This document shows, in pieces, positions 14,382-21,613 of a DNA stretch of 64,000 nucleotides. How positions within the stretch are numbered: the first letter of the stretch is position 1; every line of letters begins with the position of its first letter. Under the pieces are notes generated by a model that worked only from the letters and a program-made list of their open reading frames with translations, was not told where the DNA came from and searched no databases. Source of the stretch: Dyella sp. AtDHG13 (GTDB taxonomy: Bacteria > Pseudomonadota > Gammaproteobacteria > Xanthomonadales > Rhodanobacteraceae); contig NZ_QICJ01000006.1 of assembly GCF_003201105.1 (NCBI RefSeq), positions 124,001 to 188,000 on the forward strand. The letters are read 5' to 3'. The position numbers were made by a program, and so were the translations under genes.

Positions 14382-14458
14382 GCCCGAATAGCTCAGCCGG
14401 TTAGAGCACTTGACTGTTAATCAGGGGGTCGTTGGTTCGAGTCCAACTTCGGGCGCCA
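14382..14458 (+). tRNA. tRNA-Asn (anticodon GTT)
   Basis: A 77-nt cloverleaf: acceptor GCCCGAA/TTCGGGC, D arm GCTC...GAGC, anticodon loop CTGTTAA in the CTTGA/TCAGG stem, T arm GTTGG-TTCGAGT-CCAAC, discriminator G and encoded CCA. Its 3' end is the attachment site of the following island and is left intact on this side. Confidence 0.97.
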
Positions 14459-14461
14459 TAT
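14439..14461 (+). repeat. attL core (tRNA-Asn 3' end)
   Basis: This 23-bp segment begins GAGTCCAACTTCGGGCG, covers the T arm and acceptor 3' strand of tRNA-Asn plus a few bases, and is repeated at 21592-21613 with one G fewer. Confidence 0.88.
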
Positions 14462-14528: not shown

Positions 14529-14582
14529 ATGCCCGCATGTCCAGTTTTGTCCCATTCCGTCCCAGGACAGCGCCACCTTTTG

Positions 14583-14640
14583 GTGAGTAACTTTGGGAGT
14601 AACATCGCCCCAGGCTGTTACTCACTGAGGGAGTTACTCA
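14583..14640. promoter_or_regulatory. Cluster of GAGTAAC motifs, probable integrase arm sites
   Basis: GTGAGTAAC and GGGAGTAAC stand in direct orientation at 14583-14603. Inverted GTTACTCAC copies follow at 14617-14625 and 14633-14641, running up to the integrase start codon. The direct pair is repeated exactly at 21528-21548 near attR. The arrangement suits arm-type integrase binding and autoregulation of the integrase promoter. Confidence 0.6.
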
Positions 14641-14641
14641 C

Positions 14642-15874
14642 ATGCTGACCGACGTGAAGCTCCGTGGCCTGAAGCGAAAAGCGGCCCTTTACCGGGTGGC
14701 GGACGCCGATGGGCTGGCAGTGGAGGTCCCGGTCTCCGGTGCCCTGCGCTGGCGCTACCGTTACCGCTTCGCCGGCAAGGCCAAGATGCTGAGCCTTGGC
14801 ACCTATCCCAGTGTTTCCCTCGCCCAAGCCCGTCAGCGTCGGGATGCGGCCCGCACACAGCTGGCCCATGGCATCGACCCCAGTACGCACCGACAGACCG
14901 TCAAGCACGCTCAGGTCCAGGCAGCGGCCCCTGTGGTGACCTTTCAGCACGTGGCCCAGCGTTGGGCAGAACGGCAGAGCGTTGCCCAAGTCACGGCCCA
15001 CAAGAGTCAATGGCTCTTCGAAAGCTTCCTGTTTCCCGAGATCGGGGACATGCCAGTTAGCGAAATCACACCCCGCATTCTTCTGGATGCCCTGCGGAAG
15101 ATCGAGGAAACCGGCAAGCAGCACACCGCCAGTCGGGCGAAGGTCAAGGCAGGGCAGGTATTCCGGTTTGCCATTCTGGAAGGCCTCACGGATAACGATC
15201 CCACCGCCAGCTTGCGCGGTGCCATCAAGGCACCCAAGGCCAAGCATCACGCAGCCATTACCGAACCTAAAGCCATCGGCGAACTGCTCCGGGCCATCGA
15301 CGGTTTCTCCGGCCAGTTCGTTACGCAGTGCGCCCTGAAGCTGGCCCCGCTGGTGTTTGTGCGGCCTGGCGAGCTTAGGCAGGCCCAATGGTCAGAGTTC
15401 GACCTGGACGGGGCCATGTGGCGCATACCGGCCATGCGCATGAAGATGAAAGCAGCCCACCTCGTGCCGCTATCCAGTCAAGCCGTTGCCATTCTCCGGG
15501 AACTACAGGCGATGACGGGGCAGGGGAGCTATGTGTTTCCCGGTATGCGCACCGCCAGCCGTCCCATGTCGGAGAACACGGTCAATGCCGCGCTACGTCG
15601 CCTGGGCTATAGCGGTGACGAAATGACTGGGCACGGGTTCCGTAGCCTTGCCGCGACCCGGCTTAATGAGATGGGTTGGAACGCCGACGCCATCGAGCGT
15701 CAGTTAGCCCATGCCGAGTCCAACAAGGTCCGGGAGGCCTACACCCATGCCGCCCAATACCTGGATGAGCGCAAGCGCATGATGCAAGCGTGGGCGAACT
15801 ATTTGGATGGATTGCGCGCGGGCGGGGCGGGGAAGCCCACAAAAAAAGCCCGGAGCATCCCGGGCTTCTCTTGA
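14642..15874 (+). CDS. int: P4-type tyrosine integrase
   Basis: The 410-residue protein catalyses site-specific integration and excision. The N-terminal DUF4102-type arm-binding domain (LTDVKLRGLKRK...YRFAGKAKMLSLGTYP, residues 2-56) is followed by a core-binding domain and a catalytic domain. The catalytic set is visible: Arg241 in RPGEL, His331 and Arg334 in HGFRS, His357 in AHAES and probable nucleophile Tyr367 in AYTHAAQ. It is full length for the family (about 400). It is transcribed away from tRNA-Asn, starting right after the arm-site cluster, the normal arrangement for islands that use a tRNA gene as attachment site. Confidence 0.95.
   Translation: MLTDVKLRGLKRKAALYRVADADGLAVEVPVSGALRWRYRYRFAGKAKMLSLGTYPSVSLAQARQRRDAARTQLAHGIDPSTHRQTVKHAQVQAAAPVVTFQHVAQRWAERQSVAQVTAHKSQWLFESFLFPEIGDMPVSEITPRILLDALRKIEETGKQHTASRAKVKAGQVFRFAILEGLTDNDPTASLRGAIKAPKAKHHAAITEPKAIGELLRAIDGFSGQFVTQCALKLAPLVFVRPGELRQAQWSEFDLDGAMWRIPAMRMKMKAAHLVPLSSQAVAILRELQAMTGQGSYVFPGMRTASRPMSENTVNAALRRLGYSGDEMTGHGFRSLAATRLNEMGWNADAIERQLAHAESNKVREAYTHAAQYLDERKRMMQAWANYLDGLRAGGAGKPTKKARSIPGFS
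15838..15872 (-). terminator. Terminator of the borosin-like operon, inside the integrase 3' end
   Basis: Stem AGCCCGG/CCGGGCT. On the minus strand it is followed by seven T, 20 bases past the stop of the precursor-like gene. It overlaps the last integrase codons, so the two converging genes share it. Confidence 0.8.
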
Positions 15875-15892
15875 TGATCTCACCTCAGCCAA

Positions 15893-16126
15893 TTAGAGCT
15901 GTACGGCGAAAAGCTGTACCGCGATTGATTGCGTAATCTGAGGCGCGATCAGATCGATGTCCGCGAATTCCTGGGTTAGGTGCGAAGCGTCGCCACTTGC
16001 CGCAGCGGTCGTTAAGGCCTGGGACGCCTTTGCGCCCTCAAGAGCCGCAACCAGGGTCTGCCGTGGTGCTCGTCTCAGGGTTGCGTTGCAGCCGATTGCT
16101 TCCAGCAGCTCGATGGTGTCAGCCAT
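15893..16126 (-). CDS. Candidate split-borosin precursor peptide
   Basis: A 77-residue peptide next to and codirectional with a borosin-type methyltransferase. Residues about 3-55 look like an alpha-helical leader (ELLEAIGCNATL near the start, SGDASHL at 44-50). This resembles, as far as I recall, the binding domain of bacterial SonA-type precursors (pattern LG.DA.L ... GD...L). The C-terminus is hydrophobic and beta-branched (IDLIAPQITQSIAVQLFAVQL, residues 57-77), with AVQL twice (69-72 and 74-77), a plausible core for backbone N-methylation. The ATG has an AAAGGATC site upstream; a longer frame to 16336 has no such support. The gene lies 112 bases downstream of the methyltransferase and ends before a terminator. 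The reading frame is well supported; the precursor role is inferred from context. Confidence 0.72.
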   Translation of the reverse strand: MADTIELLEAIGCNATLRRAPRQTLVAALEGAKASQALTTAAASGDASHLTQEFADIDLIAPQITQSIAVQLFAVQL

Positions 16127-16238
16127 GTCATGATCCTTTCGTTGTTTGTCGATGAACCTGGCGCGCCGGCCGATTCCTCCGCTGGCGCTCGGTTTAGATA
16201 TCACAGTACGTGTCTTTCTTCCTGTGCCATTGTCCTGG

Positions 16239-17075
16239 CTAAGCTGATACGGGCTTTTCGTGCATCGAGCGTATGGCTTCCATACGGCGGATGAATTCTT
16301 CATCTCGTTGAGGCGCTTGTGCAGGCGGCACAACAACCGTTTCTTCTGCCGTCATCGCAATGGTAGCGATGTCACGTAGCGTTGCCTTGCGGATGCGCGG
16401 CTCTTCGATGGGCAGAGTGGCCGCTCGATAGACAATGATTTCATGGTCTAGTGGATAGTCGCGGCTGAGGCGGTCGACAAGCAGCTGCCTGTAGGGTGCC
16501 GAAGCATCTGCCTTGGAGATCGATTCATTGGCGATCATGGCAACCTGCCACAGCACTAAATAGGCCGTAGGGTCCAGCCTCCTCTTGAAGAAGACCAACT
16601 GGTTCACTTCAAAGTGCTGACATCCATGGCTTCCGGGATCAATGCCCAGGTCCGCATATAGGCAATCTTCGGCAGATATGCCGGGTTCCATCTGCGCGTC
16701 ATAGCCTTCGGATCGCGCCACTTCGATGACCTTGTGCGGTGACCAGGCGAAAACGCCGGGGTGGCCATAGAAGACGCCACAAACGCGTCTGCCAGTGCGC
16801 ACCTCAGTCATCATCAGATCGACCCACTCCAAGTAGGTTTTTGAGCGTGGCTTACCCTCTCCGTAGTTGGATTGCAGGCTCCTGACATCTTTGTGCATCC
16901 GCTGTAGCCACTGTTCAACGATGGCGTTGGATACTCCGGCGAATACGACATCGGCCTGTTCAATGTAGCTGCGAGCAATGGGGGTGAGGTGGGAGCCCAA
17001 CGTCATCCCTAAGCCGACGCAAGTGATGCTTCCACGCGAGGGCTCTTCTGCTGGAACCTCTAGGACCTTGTTCAT
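16239..17075 (-). CDS. Borosin-type peptide backbone alpha-N-methyltransferase (SonM/OphMA-like)
   Basis: A 278-residue tetrapyrrole-methylase-fold SAM enzyme. It aligns by eye to the methyltransferase domain of fungal OphMA: ITCVGLGM near residue 17, GVFYGHPGVF at 100-109, PGISAEDCLYADLGIDP at 131-147, YLVLWQVA near 172 and VVVPPAQA near 248. The OphMA catalytic residues Tyr66, Arg72 and Tyr76 correspond to Tyr71, Arg77 and Tyr81 in the NYGEGKPRSKTY segment. That match separates it from cobalamin, siroheme and diphthamide methylases of the same fold. There is no fused C-terminal substrate, so it would act in trans on the 77-residue peptide encoded next. The start follows an AGGGGAA ribosome-binding site; an upstream in-frame start adds 11 residues without support. 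Lies in the tRNA-Asn island. Confidence 0.85.
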   Translation of the reverse strand: MNKVLEVPAEEPSRGSITCVGLGMTLGSHLTPIARSYIEQADVVFAGVSNAIVEQWLQRMHKDVRSLQSNYGEGKPRSKTYLEWVDLMMTEVRTGRRVCGVFYGHPGVFAWSPHKVIEVARSEGYDAQMEPGISAEDCLYADLGIDPGSHGCQHFEVNQLVFFKRRLDPTAYLVLWQVAMIANESISKADASAPYRQLLVDRLSRDYPLDHEIIVYRAATLPIEEPRIRKATLRDIATIAMTAEETVVVPPAQAPQRDEEFIRRMEAIRSMHEKPVSA

Positions 17076-18596: not shown

Positions 18597-18878
18597 GTGG
18601 AGCCCTTCGAGGCCAAGCTGGAGACCCTGCCGGACGGCACGCAAGCGTGGGCAATCCGAAAGGTCATAGACGCCACAGACGCGCAGATCATCGAGATGCA
18701 CGACCTGGGCATGACGGCCACCGAGATTGCCAGCGACCTCGGCGTGAACAAGTCCACCGTCTCCCGCGCTATTCGGCGCCTGCGGGATGAGGGGAAGCTT
18801 CCGCCTGAGCAGTCACGCCGAACCAAGCCCAAGGCAACCCATAGTGGCGCACAGGGGGCGGACGATGACCGCGATTAA
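18597..18878 (+). CDS. Helix-turn-helix DNA-binding protein
   Basis: A 93-residue protein with a GTG start. Residues about 25-62 (DAQIIEMHDLGMTATEIA then SDLGVNKSTVSRAIRRL) form a helix-turn-helix like those at the C-terminus of resolvases and in sigma-70 region 4. It is probably a small transcription regulator of the island. The tail is basic and then acidic (GADDDRD). It overlaps the next gene by 14 bases, so translation is likely coupled. Confidence 0.62.
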   Translation: MEPFEAKLETLPDGTQAWAIRKVIDATDAQIIEMHDLGMTATEIASDLGVNKSTVSRAIRRLRDEGKLPPEQSRRTKPKATHSGAQGADDDRD

Positions 18879-19560
18879 ATCCCCCGAGCAAAGTTGCACG
18901 GTTGCAAACGCTAGTAATGCAACTGCGCAACTCTCACTAAAGCAGCTGGCATGGCGGGCACTGTCGGACAGTTGCACAGTTGCAAACCCTACAGATGCAA
19001 CGGCGCAACACGACAGAGTTGCAGCTGTTGCACGTGTTGCGTCAGTTGCGCGTGTTGCAGCAGTTGCAGACCGACCAACCCATGACCTGCGACTTGCGCT
19101 GCTGGCGCTGGCTGACCGCCATGGCTTCGACACTGCTCCCATCCATCGCCTACACAACCTGGACGTGGCTGCCTGCGCGAGATTGGACGACAGCCAGCTA
19201 TTGACCTATCTGGAATTGCTGGACGATTCCGCTACGCGATGGGCGGGCAAAAAGCCGGTAGGCCATGACGCGGTAATCCACTGCCACCACTGCGGCCCAG
19301 TGTGGGTGCACCCAAGCGTGGCTGCCGTACTTCCGGTGGTGGATGGCTGGCCCCGTGCGCTCGGGTGTCCATGGTGCGCGATACGAAAGGCAGGCGCATA
19401 TATCCCCCACCCATCGGTGCAGTGCATGGGGTGTCGTCGCTACACGTCCGACCCGGTCAACCCGGCAGCGGGTATGGGCCAATGCGCCAGCGGCAAGGGC
19501 ATGCACTACCCGATGCAGCAGCATCCGTGCGAGGCGTTCAAACCTTTACCTGGGGGCTGA
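18865..19560 (+). CDS. Cysteine-rich hypothetical island protein with VATVA-type repeats
   Basis: A 231-residue protein. The N-terminal part has a duplicated SCTVAN...ATAQ peptide and an Ala/Val/Arg run (VAAVARVASVARVAAVA). A helical middle (residues about 75-130) follows. The C-terminal part holds paired Cys/His (HCHHC, CPWC, CMGC and single Cys further on), probably zinc-binding. I chose the ATG after a GGGGCGG site, inside the end of the helix-turn-helix gene; a longer frame begins at 18787. No function recognised. The repeated DNA under the N-terminus is described as a separate feature. Confidence 0.6.
   Translation: MTAIKSPEQSCTVANASNATAQLSLKQLAWRALSDSCTVANPTDATAQHDRVAAVARVASVARVAAVADRPTHDLRLALLALADRHGFDTAPIHRLHNLDVAACARLDDSQLLTYLELLDDSATRWAGKKPVGHDAVIHCHHCGPVWVHPSVAAVLPVVDGWPRALGCPWCAIRKAGAYIPHPSVQCMGCRRYTSDPVNPAAGMGQCASGKGMHYPMQQHPCEAFKPLPGG
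18893..19069. repeat. GTTGCA/TGCAAC repeat cluster
   Basis: Two 39-bp direct repeats (18893-18931 and 18971-19009, exact period 78) each hold GTTGCAC, GTTGCAAAC, ATGCAAC and GCGCAAC. A run of further GTTGC hexamers follows to 19069. The motif recurs in both orientations about a dozen times in 177 bases. The DNA is coding, so it may be a dual-use iteron-like site or simply low-complexity coding sequence. Confidence 0.6.
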
Positions 19561-21337: not shown

Positions 21338-21527
21338 GGTTTTCCCCTGTGACTGACATGCACCGAGTGCCGCCCGAATATAGGGCGCCAGGGGAGATCG
21401 ATCCTTACCACTTGCGGTGTAGTCGCCCAAATCTTCCGACGCTGCAAATGGCGACCCATCCCAGCCTACGAGCCGGGTATTTCCCTATCAGCCACCCGGG
21501 GGCAGAACAGGGGTACCAGGCCGATTT

Positions 21528-21548
21528 GTGAGTAACTTTGGGAGTAAC
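21528..21548 (+). repeat. Distal copy of the 21-bp integrase arm-type repeat
   Basis: Identical to 14583-14603 (begins GTGAGTAACTTTGGGAG). It lies 44 bases inside attR, mirroring the copy near attL. Confidence 0.75.
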
Positions 21549-21591: not shown

Positions 21592-21613
21592 GAGTCCAAC
21601 TTCGGCGCCATAT
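21592..21613 (+). repeat. attR core
   Basis: Repeats the tRNA-Asn 3' end (GAGTCCAACTTCGGCGCCA...) with one G missing in the acceptor strand. It marks the right end of the island. The gap 21338-21886 otherwise holds the arm-type repeat, the terminator below and no convincing gene. Confidence 0.88.

Follow-up and report, generated by a model that had tools for sequence, protein, structure and literature searches.

The window, a 64,000-nucleotide stretch of a contig of Dyella sp. AtDHG13, carries a tyrosine integrase gene beside a tRNA-Asn gene. Between the attachment repeats lie two codirectional genes on the minus strand, one for a methylase and one for a 77-residue peptide. The features are the following.

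14382–14458, plus strand: tRNA-Asn (GTT), the integration target; its 3' end lies within the left attachment repeat 14439–14461
14580–14603, plus strand: arm-type repeat inside the left end, 24 nt, 96% matched at 21525–21548
14642–15874, plus strand: tyrosine integrase (Arm-DNA-bind_3, Phage_int_M, Phage_integrase)
15841–15872, minus strand: GC-rich hairpin with a T run, intrinsic-terminator-like, 3' of the precursor gene and overlapping the convergent integrase gene at its 3' end
15893–16126, minus strand: split-borosin precursor, 77 aa, with leader (borosin binding domain) 1–54, linker about 55–62 and putative core about 63–77
16239–17075, minus strand: SonM-type peptide backbone alpha-N-methyltransferase, 278 aa, so named from PDB sequence matches, alignment to SonM and the tree
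18597–18878, plus strand: island gene for an HTH DNA-binding protein (HTH_23)
21525–21548, plus strand: arm-type repeat inside the right end, partner of 14580–14603
21592–21613, plus strand: right attachment repeat, in which the tRNA-Asn 3' end (14439–14461) recurs with one gap

The methylase was compared with the PDB sequences. SonM chains ranked first (E 2.5e-65, residues 15–255 of 278), and the fused fungal borosins dbOphMA, OphMA and MroMA followed at 2e-47 to 6e-45. No cobalamin, siroheme or diphthamide methylase took the first place; precorrin-2 methylase was matched at 2e-4 only, about 60 orders of magnitude worse than SonM. In the alignment with SonM, 105 of 242 positions were identical (43%), and all six SonM residues that were checked were kept, SonM Y58/R67/Y71/Y93/F99/W166 corresponding to Y71/R77/Y81/Y103/F109/W176. 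In the tree set, from which seven duplicate sequences had been removed beforehand, the same six residues were invariant in each of the 41 rows, that of SonM among them. An earlier note, made from the DNA letters of the window, had assigned the protein to the OphMA/SonM type from two motif blocks and from equivalents of the catalytic residues. The reading frame and both OphMA-type blocks are present, and the alignment of Y71/R77/Y81 with SonM Y58/R67/Y71 and the top rank of SonM bear this assignment out. Pfam names the protein TP_methylase (75.9 bits), and its scores stayed below the curated NCBIfam cut-offs, at 42.8 against 525 bits for YabN and at most 20.5 against 163–400 for the other tetrapyrrole models. 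No relative of the methylase was found in the viral contigs searched. The enzyme is discrete, with a short charged C-terminal end after the SonM-like part and no fused core, and a separate precursor is adjacent, as the split arrangement proposed in the note had it. Judged by its sequence, the 278-residue protein is a SonM-type peptide backbone N-methyltransferase and a member of the split borosins (type IV).

The peptide gene lies 112 nt downstream of the methylase gene and is codirectional with it, in agreement with the earlier description, and an SD-like stretch, GAAAGGA, stands ahead of its start. A hairpin-like CACAGG..CCTGTG between the two genes, spotted by eye, is missing from the minimum-energy fold, and nothing is claimed for it. 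The peptide had no meaningful match in Pfam, NCBIfam, PHROGs or the PDB sequences. Profile A1 gave 16 matches among the PDB sequences, with a best E of 0.035, and SonA was absent from them; similarity of the leader to SonA was thus undetectable by sequence in the searches of the PDB sequences with the peptide and the profile. Of 47 loci, phmmer found relatives of the leader (E<0.05) in 44, the exceptions being L030, L044 and L046, and seven leader positions were invariant among 45 distinct aligned precursors. Profile A2 draws on some of the 70 methylase loci described below, with 9 of the 54 phmmer matches excluded (7 identical copies and 2 without a start Met). Of 197 genomes of the bacterial family, 121 had a match to the precursor profile at E<=1e-6.

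The structure of the peptide was predicted with AlphaFold2. With an alignment of 13 sequences, the model had helices at residues 4–13, 15–18, 22–31, 36–44 and 48–54 (mean pLDDT 69.1), and with 45 sequences a similar set of five helices up to residue 54 was obtained (mean pLDDT 69.6), the tail being of low confidence in both models. When the first model was compared by Foldseek with 350,542 PDB chains at E up to 10, SonA made up three of the four matches, weak ones with a best E of 5.7; with the model from the deeper alignment, SonA chains were six of seven matches, again weak, with a best E of 2.6. VIA aligned residues 1–54 of the peptide model on SonA 1–54 with Z 4.2, a value common for small helical bundles. 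We hold with moderate confidence that the leader, as modelled, folds as a SonA-like five-helix borosin binding domain. The leader-like helical part named in the earlier note is upheld by the five predicted helices and by the recurrence of the leader beside the methylase (56 of 70 loci).

SonM and SonA are the methylase (SO1478) and the peptide (SO1479) of a type IV split borosin of Shewanella oneidensis. In SonA, according to the available part of PMC8429565, a five-helix leader (1–53) and a linker (54–61) precede the core (62–71), which is methylated on residues 63 and 65. With the linker and core bounds set by the SonA register given there, the core of the window peptide would be at about residues 63–77, QITQSIAVQLFAVQL. 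Its end, LFAVQL, is common to three genomes of two families. The AVQL repeat that had been put forward as a mark of this core is not conserved as such, as the ortholog in [Pseudomonas] boreopolis retains only the second AVQL unit.

The two genes lie within an island of 7.1 kb with a GC content of 58.4%, as against 64.0% and 65.8% in the flanks. A comparison with the right flank matched 25 of 41 genomes and allowed 11 non-self loci to be compared. Ten of these have both flanks together without the insert, and in six of the ten the right-flank match starts at the tRNA end itself; the eleventh, L080, has the right flank only in the examined stretch. At the ten uninserted loci the tRNA end continues directly into other sequence, and in L079 and L081–L084 this sequence is closely like that downstream of the right repeat in the window. 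The bases 3' of the right attachment repeat accordingly resemble those after tRNA-Asn in uninserted relatives, L079 being the closest. An integrase beside a tRNA gene, flanking direct repeats and an uninserted site in relatives are what characterizes a tRNA-targeted integrative island, and the location in a tRNA-Asn island claimed in the note is borne out by all of these. The pair is cargo of this tRNA-Asn-targeted integrase island, whose mobility is read from its sequence. Around 29 non-self integrase loci, within 1.5 kb on each side, the methylase/peptide pair was absent in every case, and the island genes beside the integrase had no match; only the flanking fimT was matched, in L064. No tRNA gene was present in the 15 named loci checked, and Rfam at gathering scores gave tRNA only. 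Two 40-nt repeats (18892–18931 and 18970–19009, 85% alike) occur within an island ORF of unassigned function, 18787–19560.

The arrangement of the two genes was examined at 70 methylase loci, which are those fetched out of the places found, are mutually related and each bear a different methylase sequence. A precursor match lies downstream of and codirectional with the methylase in 56 of them, and at the other 14, mostly distant ones, the profile detected no downstream precursor. Methylase then peptide is therefore the usual order, and the gene order that the note had taken as distinguishing is not distinctive. Against the orthologs of Dyella sp. EPa41, dN/dS was about 0.12 (0.087/0.707) for the peptide and about 0.10 (0.106/1.094) for the methylase, and the two genes form a conserved pair under selection. 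In the tree, the window methylase groups with those of [Pseudomonas] boreopolis, Dyella sp. EPa41 and Dyella silvae (support 100/99), and the nearest is that of [Pseudomonas] boreopolis (99/80), which belongs to another family of the same order. A search of 398 sampled genomes of the order detected the clade, at E 1e-130 or better, in four genomes of two families, the own genome being one of the four. What is particular to the window pair is this rare methylase clade, with short-tail precursors and without a gene for a TPR-GGDEF cyclase. The whole genome of [Pseudomonas] boreopolis has one methylase match and one precursor match, which are the short-tail pair. The three orthologous cassettes were searched with 19–20 kb around each, and neither an integrase nor any other island gene was found there; among the ORFs of 46 non-self loci the island genes besides the pair had no match. 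With no other island gene or integrase relative in the stretches searched around the three clade mates, the methylase and peptide genes seem to travel as a unit of their own, independently of the island seen here. In the Dyella silvae cassette (L034 4206–4871, 5951–6166), leader-like peptides lie before and after the methylase, the front one without a start Met in the aligned place.

Many of the related methylases have a cyclase gene as neighbour. In 54 of the 70 loci the 4.5 kb downstream of the methylase encode a codirectional GGDEF domain, and in four more such a domain lies upstream. The twelve loci without GGDEF are the window, its three clade mates, L105, L129, five of the six loci outside the order, and L131, where the contig ends. 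L155 is the only outside locus with such a neighbour, and the loci thus show a strong methylase-GGDEF link for this order only. A GGDEF domain is already named among the borosin architectures in the Figure 1 legend of PMC11395268. The own genome has such an operon on contig C13, with a second methylase (65%), its own leader-bearing peptide and a 591-aa cyclase (L092 8725–10500) that begins with a signal-like stretch and also has weak matches to TPR, a TM segment and a GGEEF motif. A loose hydropathy check, made on stop-to-stop frames, looked for a hydrophobic stretch at the N-terminus, a TM segment and GG(D/E)EF, and all 55 related proteins passed it. By the rule of the script, and uncorrected for relatedness, a cyclase adjoins 45 of 50 acidic-tail and 5 of 19 short-tail precursors, the latter including one 35-aa fragment (L047). 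Among the five acidic-tail precursors scored without a cyclase, one is in fact present at L039, L111 and L136, a TPR part cut by the contig end is present at L131, and the fifth is in L105. In Luteibacter sp. dw_328 (L036 5885–8141 / L104), seven tandem precursors with similar leaders and different tails follow one methylase, six short-tail ones first, then an acidic one, then the cyclase. A second cluster of this strain (L105 3612–5378) has a methylase with one short precursor before it and two after it, one tail having six acidic residues, and no GGDEF occurs within the 9 kb examined. The distant methylases of L143, L144, L164 and L165 have a codirectional GGDEF upstream, and the profile detects no downstream precursor there. 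Contig C16 of the own genome (L172 1470–1790) has a third precursor-like stretch, which looks broken, its start and remainder being in different frames, and has no methylase match.

These neighbours suggest another reading, in which a borosin/c-di-GMP signalling operon gave rise to the cassette as a mobile offshoot that lacks the cyclase. The acidic-tail peptide of the chromosomal operon would be a ligand of the periplasmic TPR-GGDEF cyclase, and short-tail cassettes would be autonomous derivatives, delivered by islands, whose methylated look-alike targets the TPR domain on the periplasmic side of resident cyclases as a mimic or competitor, interfering in the host or its neighbours. The frequency of GGDEF next to the methylase, the outcome of the loose check, the operon on C13 and the split between acidic and short tails, with relatedness uncorrected, all agree with it. 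However, the bare short-tail pair is all that [Pseudomonas] boreopolis has; the two genes can thus exist by themselves, which argues against their needing a borosin-linked cyclase. Only one of six loci outside the order has the GGDEF neighbour, and the periplasmic placing comes from hydropathy. A role of the peptide in c-di-GMP interference is possible, and we regard the offshoot as improbable for this cassette, and the interfering look-alike as equally so for the short-tail cassettes as a group.

The low GC of the island and its lack in 10 of 11 relatives' loci would also suit a pair that arrived on the island and has since fallen out of use, decaying or silent. Both reading frames are intact, however, dN/dS is about 0.1 for both genes, and the SD-like sequence and the terminator-like hairpin are in place, and such a fate seems unlikely. 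It is very unlikely that the enzyme is a member of the tetrapyrrole-methylase superfamily with another substrate and that the 77-aa ORF is unrelated to it. The TP_methylase name in Pfam and the weak matches to YabN, CysG and precorrin models point that way, but these matches are far below the curated cut-offs, the SonM match outranks that of precorrin by the margin given above, and the peptide is linked to the methylase and conserved. The locus very probably holds a split-borosin RiPP cassette of two genes, which the 7.1-kb tRNA-Asn integrase island carries as cargo; its leader would dock and its core would be backbone-methylated from N to C. By analogy with SonM/SonA, from which docking, iterative methylation and a core at about 63–77 are taken, the five-helix leader of the precursor would dock on the methylase, the C-terminal hydrophobic core would thread into the active site, and S-adenosylmethionine-dependent methylation of the core backbone amides would proceed in N to C order. 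The pair thus read most likely makes a backbone-methylated peptide.

Like SonM/SonA, as far as the available part of PMC8429565 describes it, the window system has a methylase separate from a precursor of about 75 aa, the same active-site residues and a five-helix leader, predicted here. It differs in that the methylase is 43% identical, the leader is not alignable by sequence, the core is QITQSIAVQLFAVQL and the pair lies on an integrase island. The methylase-precursor-TPR/GGDEF operons of Rhodanobacteraceae and neighbours share a homologous methylase (55–70% in the family) and the leader, but they mostly have acidic-tail precursors and a downstream cyclase, where the tail of the window precursor is short and hydrophobic and no cyclase follows. 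OphMA, dbOphMA and MroMA share a homologous methyltransferase domain, and the fused clasp and core ascribed to them in the same part of PMC8429565 are both lacking in the window enzyme. 'Class 3' of PMC11395268 has the BBD and core in one protein and the methylase separate. By its methylase, active-site residues, adjacent precursor and predicted leader fold, the window pair would belong to the split borosins of type IV, or this 'class 3'.

Split borosins have been reported as widespread in bacteria (types IV–X; PMC11285071 and PMC11395268, in their available parts), and the window pair therefore adds a member to a known family, a compact pair of genes whose hydrophobic core is new. According to PMC8429565, no type IV pathway had by 2021 been tied to a final natural product. 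In the literature searched, which did not extend to the main borosin surveys, borosin was not found mentioned together with integrase, and the available part of an ocean genome survey mentions borosin and mobile genetic element once each. Two bacterial families were seen to have the cassette, here on an integrase island, and this mobile setting is its main interest. As read from its sequence, the pair may also serve as a small candidate tool for backbone N-methylation. The same genome carries the cyclase-linked operon, so that an acidic tail with a cyclase and a short tail without one occur side by side, and the role of the peptide would be testable in one strain.
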